A stretch of DNA of 41,389 bases, from NCBI GenBank assembly GCA_023249105.1, contig JAHFDG010000033.1:1-41389 (forward strand), given 5' to 3'. This DNA comes from Candidatus Methanoperedens sp. (GTDB lineage Archaea; Halobacteriota; Methanosarcinia; Methanosarcinales; Methanoperedenaceae). The notes beneath the pieces are model-generated. The model did not search any database. It saw nothing but the letters and a program-made list of their open reading frames with translations, and had not been told where the DNA came from. This document shows, one piece after another, positions 1,792 to 36,750 of the stretch (positions are counted from its first letter, which is position 1; each line of letters opens with the position of its first letter). Both the position numbers and the translations under genes were made by a program.

Positions 1792-4560
1792 TCACCTTTT
1801 ACTTTTTAATTCATTAAACAGCTTGACATGCGCTTCAAGAGAACTTTTGGAAATATCCTGTTCCTTTGATTTTTTATATTCTTTTAATTTCTCAACAAAT
1901 TCCTTTTCATTATTAGGATTAAAATCTTTAATTATTCTGGACACGGTAGCTTTTCTCCTTTCTTCAAGCGATTTTTGACTATATAAAAATCCAAATTGAT
2001 AGATCCAATTATTCAATCGATTTTGGTTTGGAATTTGTTTTTTCCATTGTTTATCGTATAAATTCCAAATGCTCTCAGCAAAAACAACTAATTTTTCTTG
2101 TTCAGGATTTTCAGATTTTAATGTTTTATATAACATACCTGCAATCTGTTGTACAGTTGTATTCTTATCGGTTCCTTCTTTGATATTGCTCTTTAATATT
2201 TCGATGCTATCCCTGAACATCCAAGTTTCCTGTGAAGTACTGCCAATAATACCCCATTTAACTTTTAAAGCGCAATCAACAATTTGTTCCATTATGTCCA
2301 TTTCAAAAACCTCCTTATGTTTTGATAAGAATTCATACATCCTCGCCTTTATTTTATTTTTATTTGATTCATCTAATTTATAAAAATAAGAAAACATGCA
2401 TTTTTTATCAGATGCATAATCAAGAAGTAAAGAAACAATTTGATTACCAGCTAAAGATCTCAATATACGATGCTCTTCTAAGATACCTGGAATCTCATCA
2501 ATTCGTACTTTATCCCATCCACATTGTTTTATGAAAGGCATACATTCTTCGATTACGAACATTTCATTGTGATATGTGTGAGGGGTGATTATATTAGTAG
2601 TATATATTTTAAAGCCAGTATAATTAATCAGATTCAAAAGGTTATTTAGTGTCCAATAATTGGATTTAACATCGCTACCCATATTAGAGTATATAATTGT
2701 ATTATAGTCAAAATTAAAGGAGATTTTTTGAATGGTTAATTCTAGCTGTTTGGAACTTTGATTAATTGAAATTTTTTTCTCAAATAACTTATGTAACGTC
2801 TCAGCTAATGCTTTTTTTTCCATATTTATAAAATAGTCGCCGACATCAATGTATATACATAAGTTGCTTTTCGTAGCATTAGGGAATTTTGCAATTCTTA
2901 GAAGTGATTCTGTTGCGCAAAGCTGACAAAGATAACTTTTTTTATTGTTTAATTTGTTCAAGCATTTGTTACTAAACCCTCTCGCAGAGAACCCAAAAAC
3001 TTTGGATTCTTTGACTTCTATCTCACCTTTGTCCCCACAGACTATGCACATATTTTTTTTAGGTGGGGGTTCATTTAAAATACTATCTAAATTATATAGT
3101 TTCTTAATAAAATTTCCGTTTAAATAAGTATTTATAAAGTCGCTATAATCTGCGTTTGAAGAACTCGAACTATTATTATTGTTGAATTTGTTTAAGATTT
3201 CAGAAATAAGCAATGTGTATAACTTTTCTTGGTCATCATTCTCACAAGCATATAAAATTGAGATGAGTGTTTTATCAGTTGGATCATCATTTGTAAAAAT
3301 TGTATTTATATTACTATATGCAAATTTCTTAAGAATCTCGATTTCATTTTTTTGAAGAATTTCCCTCTCTTTTTTCCATTCTTCTTTTTCTTTCAAAAAT
3401 TTTATTTTAGATAATCCGATATTTAGAATAATCTTTTTATCAATATCATCTAAGTCATTCCATTCTTTATGAAGCGCCACAAAATATTTTCCATCTTTTC
3501 GTTGAACAATCTCTAACGGCAATTCATAATAATCAATTATATCATTAAAAAATTCCTTATTTTCATCAATTAGTTCTTTCTTAAGGTATATGATTTTAGA
3601 AATATTTTTTATAATTATCTCTTTAATGATGTTCTCATTCAAGGGTAAAAAGTCTAAAAAGCCAAAATCAACCTTCTGGAAATCAATTTTAGTTGTCGCT
3701 GTAAAATCAATTTCGGACTCAAGAGGATTTCCAAATATTTTAGTGATGGTATCGATATCTCGATACTCTAAAGGATTACCAAAGTAAACTATTCCGTCTT
3801 TTAAATGAAATAATAATCTGTATTTCTTTTCATCATTCAGATACTGTTTTACCACAGTAATCAATTTTTGTGATAAAAGTGTGTGAATATTTTTATCAAC
3901 ACATACATAGGATATGTTCCAAAAATCGCTTATCTTTTTATCTGCTTTAAATTGAATATTATTTATTTTTTTAAAAAATGTATGTGCATCATCAACCTTT
4001 TGACTGGCTATTTTATCGGCAAACTGAGAATATTCAACCAGTTCATTTAGAAAATTTCTATTTTTAACATTAAGTGTAGTAGCATAATTTTTTGTCCGCT
4101 CTTCTGTTTTTAAAATAATAAATTTTATTTCTTCTACATAATTATCCCATTCTGGAAAAAAATTAATAAGATTAAGTTCATTGCATACAATTTTTAGATT
4201 GTTATCCACAGCGTCTCTTAAATCATATATATTACATAGTTTATTGATATCATGCAGTGTATAGCCTATAATAAAACATTTAATATATTTTTCAATTTCT
4301 TTGTTTTCTTCTAAATTATCATATTCTTTTATAAGGTGTTCTTCCAGTAACAAACACGCAGGGTATAAACCATTGAGTATGTGAACATAATATGGAACAT
4401 CAGGTAAGTCCTTGAATCTGGAAGTGCCTTTAGCACTTAGAAGAAGATAATTTTTCATTAATTCACTGAGAAGCAGTTCGTTATAATTATTAATTAGTTC
4501 ATTGAATATTCTTGACCTGAAATATCCAATTTGCTCGATACTTACTTTTACTTCTTCCAT
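1792..4560 (-). CDS. cas10d: Type I-D CRISPR large subunit Cas10d (Csc3)
   Basis: About 922 residues. Cas10d is the large subunit of type I-D effector complexes and carries the HD nuclease that type I systems usually have on Cas3. An N-terminal HD motif is visible (GYTLHDINKL, His-Asp near residues 103-106). A treble-clef-like zinc site lies near residues 505-545 (CIVCG and, about 40 residues on, CQLC). A palm-like stretch with IDVGDYF follows near residue 570; the canonical GGDD of type III Cas10 is not seen, as usual for Cas10d. The start is either ATG at 4560 or GTG at 4566; the latter overlaps the upstream stop as GTGA. Low GC, with many Asn and Lys codons. No cas3 helicase gene is in the window. 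Confidence 0.9.
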   Translation of the reverse strand: MEEVKVSIEQIGYFRSRIFNELINNYNELLLSELMKNYLLLSAKGTSRFKDLPDVPYYVHILNGLYPACLLLEEHLIKEYDNLEENKEIEKYIKCFIIGYTLHDINKLCNIYDLRDAVDNNLKIVCNELNLINFFPEWDNYVEEIKFIILKTEERTKNYATTLNVKNRNFLNELVEYSQFADKIASQKVDDAHTFFKKINNIQFKADKKISDFWNISYVCVDKNIHTLLSQKLITVVKQYLNDEKKYRLLFHLKDGIVYFGNPLEYRDIDTITKIFGNPLESEIDFTATTKIDFQKVDFGFLDFLPLNENIIKEIIIKNISKIIYLKKELIDENKEFFNDIIDYYELPLEIVQRKDGKYFVALHKEWNDLDDIDKKIILNIGLSKIKFLKEKEEWKKEREILQKNEIEILKKFAYSNINTIFTNDDPTDKTLISILYACENDDQEKLYTLLISEILNKFNNNNSSSSSNADYSDFINTYLNGNFIKKLYNLDSILNEPPPKKNMCIVCGDKGEIEVKESKVFGFSARGFSNKCLNKLNNKKSYLCQLCATESLLRIAKFPNATKSNLCIYIDVGDYFINMEKKALAETLHKLFEKKISINQSSKQLELTIQKISFNFDYNTIIYSNMGSDVKSNYWTLNNLLNLINYTGFKIYTTNIITPHTYHNEMFVIEECMPFIKQCGWDKVRIDEIPGILEEHRILRSLAGNQIVSLLLDYASDKKCMFSYFYKLDESNKNKIKARMYEFLSKHKEVFEMDIMEQIVDCALKVKWGIIGSTSQETWMFRDSIEILKSNIKEGTDKNTTVQQIAGMLYKTLKSENPEQEKLVVFAESIWNLYDKQWKKQIPNQNRLNNWIYQFGFLYSQKSLEERRKATVSRIIKDFNPNNEKEFVEKLKEYKKSKEQDISKSSLEAHVKLFNELKSKR

Positions 4561-25166: not shown

Positions 25167-25246
25167 AAGTAATAATTACAAACCTGATTTACATATTATA
25201 TCAACACTTTGCGTACTTGGCGCCTGGTATGAAAAAATCAACAACT

Positions 25247-25307
25247 AACTCGTACGAACTGATACGAACTCACGCCATCATAGTTCGTACGAGTTCGTAT
25301 TAGTTCG
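25247..25307. repeat. TACGAACT / GTTCGTA repeat cluster with a 14-base inverted repeat
   Basis: AACTCGTACGAACT at 25247-25260 is the exact reverse complement of 25282-25295. Additional units (GATACGAACT at 25261-25270, GAGTTCGTATTAGTTCG at 25291-25307) repeat the same word. The word GAGTTCGTATT followed by AGTTC also occurs at 5129-5145 next to cas6. It precedes the E1-like gene by about 95 bases. It may be a dispersed repeat family or a binding site. Confidence 0.7.
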
Positions 25308-25402
25308 CTGTTAATGTATACCCGATTTACCACAAATTATATATGGCAGTAATACTTTATGGTGCTAAATAATACTCCCAGTAATAATATGGTGATAAAA
25401 CA

Positions 25403-26212
25403 ATGTTAGGCGGATTCAATGAAGAACAAATAAGAAGATACTCGCGCCACATCATTTTACCTGAAGTTGGCGGAAAAGGGCAAAAAAAACTTCTCTCCTC
25501 GAAGGTATTATGCATAGGCGCAGGAGGTCTTGGCGCGCCCATAATCGAATACCTTGCAGCGGCAGGCGTGGGGACGCTCGGCATCATCGACGACGACACG
25601 GTTGACCTTAGCAACCTCCAGCGGCAGGTCATCCACGGGGGGAATGTGGGCAAACCCAAAGCCGAATCTGCAAAACAATTTGTCAATAATCTCAATCCCG
25701 ATATCGAAGTAAAAACCTATATCGAACGGCTTAATGCCAATAATGTGGTTGATCTTTTCAATGAATACGATATAGTGGTGGACGGCTCTGATAATTTTGC
25801 AACCCGGTACCTTGTCAATGATGCCTGTGTTATTACTGACACACCGCTATCCCACGGCAGCATATACAGGTTCGAAGGACAGGTCACAACAATAATACCG
25901 CACAAAGGCCCGTGCTACAGGTGTCTCTTTGAACACGCGCCCCCGCCTGGAATGGTGCCGAGCTGCCAGGAGGCTGGAGTGCTTGGCGTTCTCCCCGGCA
26001 TAATAGGCGTAATCCAGGCGACCGAAGTGGTAAAATACCTGCTCGGCATAGGCGAGATGCTTACAGGGCGCCTTATTTACTACGATGCGCTCAACATGAC
26101 CTTTGACGAAATCAAAATGCGGTGGAACAAGCAGTGCCCCGTATGTGGGGAACAACCCAAAATAACATCGATACAGGAAGAAATATACGGAGATTCATGC
26201 AGGATATGGTGA
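25403..26212 (+). CDS. E1-like adenylyltransferase (MoeB/ThiF/UbaA family)
   Basis: 269 residues. Family members adenylate the C-terminal Gly of a ubiquitin-like or sulfur-carrier protein. RYSRHIILPEVGGKGQKKL opens the sequence; the ATP-binding GAGGLGAPIIEYLAAAGVG and DDDTVDLSNLQRQVIH follow. The zinc site uses CYRC (near residue 172) and CPVC (near residue 247). In archaea this type (UbaA) activates SAMP proteins for tRNA thiolation, molybdopterin synthesis and protein modification. GGTGAT precedes the ATG. It heads a five-gene sulfur-relay operon, with tusA starting 4 bases after its stop. No SAMP gene is nearby. Confidence 0.88.
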   Translation: MLGGFNEEQIRRYSRHIILPEVGGKGQKKLLSSKVLCIGAGGLGAPIIEYLAAAGVGTLGIIDDDTVDLSNLQRQVIHGGNVGKPKAESAKQFVNNLNPDIEVKTYIERLNANNVVDLFNEYDIVVDGSDNFATRYLVNDACVITDTPLSHGSIYRFEGQVTTIIPHKGPCYRCLFEHAPPPGMVPSCQEAGVLGVLPGIIGVIQATEVVKYLLGIGEMLTGRLIYYDALNMTFDEIKMRWNKQCPVCGEQPKITSIQEEIYGDSCRIW

Positions 26213-26216
26213 AAAA

Positions 26217-26441
26217 ATGGCAGTTGAACTTGATTTGAAAGGGGAAGTATGCCCCTATACATTTGTAAAAACAAAACTCAAACTTGAGGAACTTGAAAGC
26301 GGCGAAGAACTGTGCGTGACATTTGACCATGCCCCGGCAGTAGAGAACGTGCCGCGCAGCCTGAAAAACGAAGGGCATAAAATAATGGGTATAGAGCAGA
26401 AGGGCGAACACCTCTGGATTGTCAGGATTCGTAAAGCATGA
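26217..26441 (+). CDS. TusA-like sulfur carrier
   Basis: 74 residues. LDLKGEVCPYTFVKTKLKLE carries the single active Cys of the TusA/SirA/YeeD family, with CPYT in place of the usual CPxP. The C-terminal GHKIMGIEQKGEHLWIVRI matches the last strands. TusA accepts persulfide sulfur from a cysteine desulfurase and passes it on. Its stop overlaps the next start (ATGA at 26438-26441). Confidence 0.85.
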   Translation: MAVELDLKGEVCPYTFVKTKLKLEELESGEELCVTFDHAPAVENVPRSLKNEGHKIMGIEQKGEHLWIVRIRKA

Positions 26442-26740
26442 AGCTCGGGATACTATTGACCACAAGCCCTGAGAACGAGAATACCAGTACGGTTATTTCA
26501 ATAAGCTCGGCTGCAAGGGAACAGGGTCATGATGTATCGATTTTCCTGATGTACGACGGCGTTTATAACATACAAAAAAAGGAATTTACTGATCTAATCG
26601 AAAAAGGCGTTAATATCGCCGTCTGTGCGTTCAACGTGGAGCAGCGCAATATCGCCAGGGTGGACGGCATCCTGTTTGGCAGCCAGTACGACCATGCGTG
26701 CATAGCAGGCGAAGTTGACAGGTTCATATCTTTCGGGTGA
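26438..26740 (+). CDS. DsrE-family protein, TusD/DsrE-like
   Basis: 100 residues. ILLTTSPENENTSTVISISS opens the fold and AREQGHDVSIFLMYDGVYN is the typical second block. The Cys in NIAVCAFNVEQRNI sits where TusD and DsrE carry the persulfide-accepting cysteine (C-A---xxxRxI). It would form a complex with the two later paralogues. Overlaps tusA by 4 bases. Gly-rich KxxFSG-type endings are absent. Confidence 0.8.
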   Translation: MKLGILLTTSPENENTSTVISISSAAREQGHDVSIFLMYDGVYNIQKKEFTDLIEKGVNIAVCAFNVEQRNIARVDGILFGSQYDHACIAGEVDRFISFG

Positions 26741-26743
26741 GCA

Positions 26744-26827
26744 ATGAAAAACTTTACGAAAGTTTTATCAAATGAAGGGGTATGGCACATACCCCTATAC
26801 GTCATAAAGGGGCGTAACCCTTTATGA
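26744..26827 (+). CDS. Possible 27-codon leader-type ORF in the sulfur-relay operon
   Basis: An ATG at 26744, preceded by GGGTGA (which includes the stop of the TusD-like gene), opens 27 codons ending in a TGA at 26825-26827. The stop overlaps the ATG of the TusC-like gene as ATGA. The predicted peptide starts MKNFTKVLSNEG and ends IKGRNPL. The whole ORF is made of three hairpin-forming segments. It could couple translation across the spacer or act as a regulatory leader; it could also be a chance frame in a repeat insertion. Confidence 0.4.
   Translation: MKNFTKVLSNEGVWHIPLYVIKGRNPL
26748..26826 (+). repeat. Three successive perfect hairpins between tusD-like and tusC-like genes
   Basis: Hairpin 1: AAAACTTT (26748-26755) / AAAGTTTT (26759-26766), loop 3. 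Hairpin 2: AGGGGTATG (26776-26784) / CATACCCCT (26788-26796), loop 3. Hairpin 3: CATAAAGGG (26803-26811) / CCCTTTATG (26818-26826), loop 6. The last arm contains the ATG of the next gene, whose only ribosome-site-like purines (AAAGGGG) are in the opposite arm, so the structure could hide the start. Confidence 0.75.
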
Positions 26828-27168
26828 AAAAAATAACCGTGATTGTCAGAAACCTTCCCATGAATACAAGGAGAAACGCCGAGGCGCTCCGGATGAGTGT
26901 GGGTCTTACGTTGCGCGAGGATAAGGTCACGGTTATTTTCCTGGATGACGGCGTTTATTCCGCGACCCAAACAAAGCCTGAACTGATTAATCTGAAACCA
27001 TTGACTAAGGAATTCGAGGTGCTTTCAATGCTGAAATGCACATTGCTGGTTGACAGGCTTTCCATGGAAAAGAGGGGTATATCAAATCTTCTTGGAAATG
27101 TGATGCCCGTTCAACGAGACGAGATTGTAAAAACGATAACAGAATCTGATATAGTGATACCATTTTAA
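26824..27168 (+). CDS. DsrE-superfamily protein, TusC/DsrF-like
   Basis: 114 residues. MKKITVIVRNLPMNTRRNAE is a DsrEF-type start. The middle (VTVIFLDDGVYSAT) has the conserved DGVY motif, and the later MLKCTLLVDRLSMEKRGI keeps the RGI block seen in DsrF/TusC. It is expected to form part of a TusBCD-like hexamer. Its ATG lies within a 9-base hairpin stem and has no free ribosome-binding site. The next gene follows after 2 bases. Confidence 0.75.
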   Translation: MKKITVIVRNLPMNTRRNAEALRMSVGLTLREDKVTVIFLDDGVYSATQTKPELINLKPLTKEFEVLSMLKCTLLVDRLSMEKRGISNLLGNVMPVQRDEIVKTITESDIVIPF

Positions 27169-27170
27169 TT

Positions 27171-27416
27171 ATGAAGATACTTCACATTATCCGGAACCCG
27201 AACGATGAAACCCCACTGGAGATAGCAAGGGCGCAGAGCAAGGACCACGAAGTGGCAATATTGTTATTGCACGATGCTGTTTACGCAAAACCTGATTTAA
27301 CGACCTATGCCTGTGCGGCGGATGCAGAGGCGAGAGGGGTTACAGGGCATGAAAACGTGGGATATGACAGGATTGTCAAGATGCTGTTCGAGTTTGATAA
27401 AGTGGTTTCGTGGTAA
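27171..27416 (+). CDS. DsrH/TusB-like protein
   Basis: 81 residues. VAILLLHDAVYAKP, a Cys in the TYACAADAEARGV block, and a C-terminal FDKVVSW (the terminal Trp typical of TusB/DsrH) identify the family. With the two genes before it this completes a TusD-TusC-TusB set in the same order as the bacterial operon. The stop is 4 bases from that of the convergent manC-type gene. Confidence 0.82.
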   Translation: MKILHIIRNPNDETPLEIARAQSKDHEVAILLLHDAVYAKPDLTTYACAADAEARGVTGHENVGYDRIVKMLFEFDKVVSW

Positions 27417-36289: not shown

Positions 36290-36750
36290 TAAGGTTGTTC
36301 GAATTCAAAAAGCTTCATCTGTGCATAACCTTCTTTTTCTTCAGGCGTACCCTGTGTTTCGATGTAATTCCGTATAATTTCTGCTGTAATACCATCGCCT
36401 ACCGTCCCTATGTAACCTCCATCACTCCAAAATTCCCCTCCCCAAAGCTGTTTTTTAATTTCAGGGTACTGCTTAAACAATTCTCTTGCCGTAATACTTT
36501 TAATAATTTGCATTACCCGCGAAGGTGCATACTTGGGGGCTGCTTCTAAAAAAACATGTACATGATCGCCATCAGTTCCTAGAGCGTCAAACTCAAACCA
36601 ATATCTTTTGCCAATCTCCAAACACAGATTTTTGAAGTTGTTTATTCTATCTTTCTCAAATAGCAATTTCTTTCTATACTTCACACATAGCACCATGTGG
36701 TATCTTATTTTGTAAACACAATGGCTTGCACGCCTTAATTCTACCATCAC
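36289..36750 (-). mobile_element. tnpA: IS200/IS605 family transposase TnpA (Y1 type)
   Basis: 153 residues. VYKIRYHMVLCVKYRKKLL opens the Y1 HUH fold; DGDHVHVFLEAAPKYAPSRV carries the HUH metal-binding pair, and NYIETQG near residue 130 holds the catalytic Tyr. Length is usual for IS200-type TnpA. ATG at 36750 (or the next codon). No tnpB accompanies it, so this is an IS200-like element. Hairpins lie on both sides, within about 80 bases of the gene. It has landed between pyrH and the DUF6159 gene. Confidence 0.92.

Follow-up and report, generated by a model that had tools for sequence, protein, structure and literature searches.

Rickettsia palindromic elements (RPEs) are described, in the summary of Ogata et al. 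2000/2002 given in PMC10969869, as frame-keeping selfish palindromes that are translated within the host protein. MITEs of archaea and bacteria are short, dispersed, multicopy sequences which lack an enzyme gene and duplicate their target site. PATEs derived from IS200/IS605, as well as REP/REPIN palindromes, are short palindromic repeats with hairpin ends. IS200/IS605 elements insert without target duplication. Termination-reinitiation at ATGA overlaps has been established experimentally in Haloferax and E. coli, and a ribosome-binding site is helpful but not essential for reinitiation at ATGA in Haloferax (Huber et al. 2019, PMC6728339). A stop-start distance of about 20 nt nearly abolishes coupling (Huber et al. 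2023, PMC10666635).

We analysed a window of 41,389 nucleotides from Candidatus Methanoperedens, to which genus the host is assigned. Between a TusD-like and a TusC-like gene of a sulfur-relay cluster, the window contains a palindromic insert which appears to unite two of the phenomena above, the selfish palindrome that preserves a reading frame and the coupling of translation where stop and start overlap as ATGA. From the sequence we infer, with a probability of about 0.83, that this spacer is a small mobile palindromic element found at start codons with its target ATGA duplicated, and that the host gene is expressed via termination-reinitiation. Like RPEs, the copies of this element are short dispersed palindromes that occur within or next to protein-coding genes and preserve the frame; two Methanoperedens copies lie in frame within genes (Kae1-Bud32 and MoeA), but the tusC copy and most others do not. 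Unlike RPEs, they are mostly at start codons, with a distinct leader ORF ending at the regenerated start, and they differ in sequence and in domain of life. The -4 nt geometry is the same as in the ATGA overlaps that undergo termination-reinitiation (PMC6728339, PMC10666635). The known pairs are native neighbouring genes, whereas here a mobile element would create the overlap de novo.

The spacer between tusD and tusC

The cluster and the spacer contain the following features.

25403..26212, plus strand: ThiF/MoeB-like gene of the sulfur-relay cluster (Pfam ThiF, 1.4e-86)
26217..26441, plus strand: TusA-like gene (Pfam TusA, 1.9e-22)
26438..26740, plus strand: TusD-like gene, DsrE family (Pfam DsrE, 5.9e-11)
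26735..26740, plus strand: GGGTGA, native tusC ribosome-binding site, now probably used by the leader (sequence; empty-site congeners)
26744..26747, plus strand: ATGA, left copy of the duplicated target and ancestral tusC start codon (single ATGA in 20 empty-site congeners)
26744..26827, plus strand: 27-codon leader ORF MKNFTKVLSNEGVWHIPLYVIKGRNPL, ending in the TGA of ATGA (translation)
26748..26823, plus strand: body of the inserted palindromic element, 76 bp (80 bp added including the duplication; dispersed copies, empty sites)
26748..26766, plus strand: left terminal hairpin, 8 bp, stems 26748-26755/26759-26766, hallmark AAAACTTTNNGAAAGTTTTATCAAA
26776..26796, plus strand: middle hairpin, 9 bp, stems 26776-26784/26788-26796, strong covariation among copies (double changes in 6 of 9 pairs)
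26802..26827, plus strand: right terminal hairpin, 10 bp, stems 26802-26811/26818-26827, holding the tusC start codon; type A, without ribosome-binding site
26824..26827, plus strand: ATGA, right copy of the duplicated target, leader stop and tusC start (sequence, translation)
26824..27168, plus strand: TusC-like gene, DsrE family (Pfam DsrE, 5.7e-14)
27171..27416, plus strand: small gene 3' of tusC, probably TusB/DsrH-like by position (Pfam gave no match)

The TusD-like gene ends at 26740 and the TusC-like gene starts at 26824, leaving 83 bases between them. The GGGTGA site at 26735-26740 overlaps the tusD stop, and GGGTGA or GGGTAA is retained in most congeners whose tusC site is empty. The leader begins at ATG 26744, runs for 27 sense codons and ends at TGA 26825-26827, overlapping the tusC ATG at 26824 as ATGA. 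An earlier note on this DNA had reported the 83-base spacer, the ORF with its own GGGTGA and ATGA overlap, and a third stem holding the tusC-like start codon, and the coordinates agree with it on each of these, the hairpin at 26802-26827 spanning ATG 26824. It had also given three perfect stems of 8, 9 and 9 bases; the first two are as described and the third is 10 bp, one pair longer. The folding z score of the spacer is -7.9 as DNA and -6.2 as RNA, and none of 200 dinucleotide shuffles folded equally well. These shuffles, together with the repeat copies elsewhere in the genome, rule out hairpins arising by chance.

Dispersed copies and their target sites

The element census was built from similarity searches and fetched stretches, with the copies of relatives picked by their similarity to the tusC copy. 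The 84 bp spacer stretch belongs to a family of dispersed palindromic elements and has 48 matches in its own genome, itself included. The next best match has an E value of 5e-31, and several are near full length with about 80-92% identity. When at most 2 mismatches are allowed, the left hairpin AAACTTTNNNAAAGTTTTATCAAA has 52 occurrences and its reversed control has 0. We found the element family in 19 of the 31 genomes from Methanoperedens, and in none of the 29 that represent other genera in the same taxonomic family or order. Its members are multicopy, measure 80-270 bp and have no enzyme gene of their own. An Rfam search with the element returned no known RNA family. Phage and plasmid records, and viral contigs searched with the exact pattern, gave no element match, and an origin from phage, plasmid or virus was rejected on these records. 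The covariation between copies can come from constraint on either DNA or RNA and does not choose between them. Some composite elements carry extra modules inside or before the right hairpin (TCGCTAAACTTTTAG...; L125 1504-1765, L024 4345-4500 on the minus strand, and L134). These extra modules suggest nested insertions that preserve the frame.

At the tusC site, 20 congeners are empty, with the junction TTCGGGTGA followed by two to four bases and then ATGAA. Filled tusC sites are confined to the genome of the window (G000; insert of 80 nt), its sister G009 (168 nt) and G041 (107 nt). The argH site is empty in 21 genomes and filled in 7. Filled sites carry the start tetra- or pentanucleotide on both flanks: ATGA/ATGA, GTGA/GTGA (L118, with a GTG start), the 5-bp ATGAA/ATGAA (argH, L119) and TCAA/TCAA (L022 and L031, minus strand), with mismatched flanks in a few copies (TTGA/ATGA in L122, ATGG/ATGA in L132). 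Because the GTGA, ATGAA and TCAA pairs exist, the flanking duplicate must be copied from the target and not borne by the element. We considered an insertion without duplication in which the element carries the ATGA; this fits tusC alone and fails for those three kinds of flank. Comparison of filled with empty sites thus indicates that the tusC insertion duplicated the ATGA at the start codon. One TCAA-flanked copy, near 3181 on the minus strand of L022 (G000 C26:14955-15024), appears, when the opposite strand is read, to coincide with a stop codon (TTGA) of a gene.

Genus-wide, the fetched loci include 79 copies at start codons, which lie before 45 gene families. An ORF of at least 100 aa follows 64 of the 79; as a baseline, just 5.4% of the ATGA sites in this DNA resemble gene starts. 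The targets include rpoA2 (RNA polymerase A''), ribosomal L14 and L19e, pheS (PheRS alpha), cca (CCA enzyme), RtcA, dapB, a LeuB-like enzyme and argH. Within the window's own genome, a hand count with a flank-blind pattern gave about 46 outermost elements, about 22 of them at start codons. Most of the remainder, which make up about half, lie between genes; two lie in frame within genes. One of the two, near 2084 on the minus strand of L229 (G000 C27:16992-17015), lies at the Kae1/Bud32 junction of a fused 550-aa ORF and adds about 20 residues; the other, near 2057 of L230 (G000 C58:2950-2973), is in reverse orientation within a MoeA-like gene. Copies flanked by ATGA are nearly all at gene starts. 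Start codons may be chosen by the machinery or may simply be where insertions survived: those within genes would be purged, yet on survivorship alone intergenic ATGA sites should be hit too.

The leader frame and expression of the host gene

The old start codon opens a leader encoded by the element, and in 66 of the 79 start-codon copies the leader stop overlaps the regenerated start as ATGA. The stop lies 6 nt before the start in 7 copies and 16 nt before it in 3, and the last three copies are tandem or degenerate. These distances agree with the reported coupling range. The coupled frame is open in 66/66, the other two frames in 0/66 and 4/66. The inserts at argH in six species (143, 158, 161, 173, 218 and 266 nt) are all coupled. 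The argH-type copies restore the frame: their duplication has one extra base and their interior has two. The argH site of G008 (L157) is the sole filled one whose leader, read from the old ATG, is interrupted; its frame into ATGA is open. In right hairpins of type A a stop lies at most 16 nt from the start whichever frame is read, and each frame is represented among them, whereas type B hairpins do not provide such a stop in every frame and tolerate only one; GAGGTG is present in 33/33 of type B and in none of type A. The p-values on frame are optimistic and serve only as guides, because the copies share descent and insertions at orthologous sites do not count as independent events: among composites of 103-269 nt, 22 of 26 copies, and 15 of the 19 distinct lengths, leave a remainder of 2 on division by 3 (binomial p = 6e-5), and type A is coupled in 33 copies and not in 12, vs. 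33/33 for type B (Fisher p = 9e-4).

The leader peptide has a dN/dS of 1.27 overall and 1.45 outside the middle hairpin. With these values above 1, a conserved functional peptide was ruled out. The peptide is not conserved and is without purifying selection, and what persists is the open frame and the palindromic stems.

We propose that ribosomes would enter at the native ribosome-binding site, which now serves the leader, and that translation of the leader would melt the right hairpin burying the start of the gene. The ribosomes would then terminate at the TGA and reinitiate on the overlapping ATG. The regenerated start is held in the 10-bp stem, without a ribosome-binding site in type A and with a hidden GAGGTG in type B. 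Such termination-reinitiation would make insertions at start codons survivable even in essential genes, and so allow the element to persist. In our best reading, a MITE-like element is tolerated because the host gene stays expressed by this route. The element is probably selfish or neutral; it could regulate tusC, an idea for which we have no support.

Whether the hand-over is needed at all depends on how the frame match arose. A purely neutral insertion could have inherited it from a common 80-nt source copy, with de novo initiation on the regenerated ATG and no need for leader translation. The 80 or 83 nt common to many copies by descent, and the GAGGTG that gives type B hairpins a ribosome-binding site of their own, are consistent with this idea. 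It has difficulty with composites of many lengths in the coupled frame (22/26), some with a 5-bp duplication compensated inside the element, with type A hairpins that have no ribosome-binding site and yet precede essential genes, and with a gene start buried in a 10-bp stem. We therefore regard it as improbable. A ribosome hop from the first ATGA to the second, as in byp-like translational bypassing, would find identical take-off and landing tetranucleotides with hairpins between them. It is superfluous, given an open leader that ends at ATGA, and a hop needs no open frame, yet the frame is open in every one of the 66 coupled copies; we give it almost no credence.

The earlier note had raised a translation switch. 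In a switch dedicated to tusC, the leader peptide or the hairpins would sense something and regulate the sulfur-relay operon. The leader ORF, the start-burying hairpin and the ATGA overlap are all there, but the same element precedes dozens of unrelated genes, housekeeping genes among them, and is missing at tusC in the 20 congeners, and three sister species have tusC inserts of differing size. A regulatory leader peptide or attenuator would be recognised by a conserved peptide or by a leader at orthologous genes; the empty tusC sites, the dN/dS and the Rfam result all point away from one. A switch specific to tusC is thus very unlikely. The other suggestion of that note, a palindromic insertion that kept the frame, is confirmed by the empty sites and the dispersed copies. 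Its picture of leader ribosomes opening the hairpin holds as the likely route of gene expression, because the coupled frame is preserved over dozens of genes and many element lengths; as a tusC switch it is not supported. The hairpins are indeed a common dispersed repeat, an outcome named beforehand as fatal, and this counts against the switch idea alone.

A further step would be that the family evolved for start codons. The element ends carry TCA/TCAT, which can pair with the target. The machinery might recognise NTGA at gene starts, and the element might be built as a ribosome relay, of which the open frame, the start-burying hairpin, the hidden ribosome-binding site of type B and the ATGA stop-start would be the parts, with little harm even in ribosomal protein or RNA polymerase genes. 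We put this forward tentatively, at somewhat less than even odds.

Mobilisation and relation to transposons

The element shares with MITEs its small size, dispersal, copy number and absence of an enzyme gene, as well as the duplicated target seen in the flank pairs and empty sites, apart from the few mismatched pairs. It differs in having no terminal inverted repeats, since each end is its own, different hairpin, in having no autonomous parent that we could find, and in its position at start codons with a coupled leader ORF. Inspection of left-end-only and right-end-only copies revealed no enclosed transposase, and no mobilising enzyme was found. Hairpin ends and short palindromic repeats are also features of IS200/IS605-derived PATEs and REP/REPIN palindromes, but here the flanks duplicate and covary (GTGA/GTGA, TCAA/TCAA), and no association with a Y1 transposase was seen. 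We considered a Y1 transposase as the current mobiliser and found no clear association with the element: G015 has many copies and no PF01797 match. The window itself encodes a Y1_Tnp (IS200/IS605-type) transposase domain at 36352-36720 on the minus strand, and no ends of the palindromic family were seen beside it.

The element could nevertheless be a classical transposon derivative, either an ordinary MITE or an IS200/IS605-type PATE or REP-like repeat, moved by a known transposase with a preference for ATGA, its placement at start codons reflecting survivorship only. The terminal hairpins look like IS200/605 ends, Y1 transposases occur in the genus and in the window, and insertions within genes would be lost. 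Target duplication with covarying flanks is at odds with IS200/605, the element-rich G015 has no Y1 match, there are no terminal inverted repeats, and no parent was found. We consider this origin unlikely, though it deserves some weight; it bears on the mode of movement alone and is compatible with coupled expression of the host gene. We do not class the element as an RPE, given its sequence and its location mostly outside coding sequence, as a classical MITE, given that it has no terminal inverted repeats and no parent was found, or as an IS200/IS605 derivative, given its target duplication. The literature searched, which included few subscription journals or preprints, contained no report linking Methanoperedens with MITEs or with palindromes at start codons, and related searches returned nothing similar.

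If expression by termination-reinitiation is correct, the element undoes, in translation, the damage that its own insertion causes, and does so neither by avoiding genes nor by splicing out. The strength of coupling at ATGA overlaps in uncultured archaea could then be read from natural experiments, with dozens of genes that have or lack the same leader in sister species. For annotation, the element explains why many Methanoperedens genes are preceded by spurious small ORFs and have uncertain start calls.

Another dispersed repeat (TTCGTACGAGTTCGTA...) lies at 25240-25330 of the window, and the palindromic element has inserted into related copies of it in L033 and L022.
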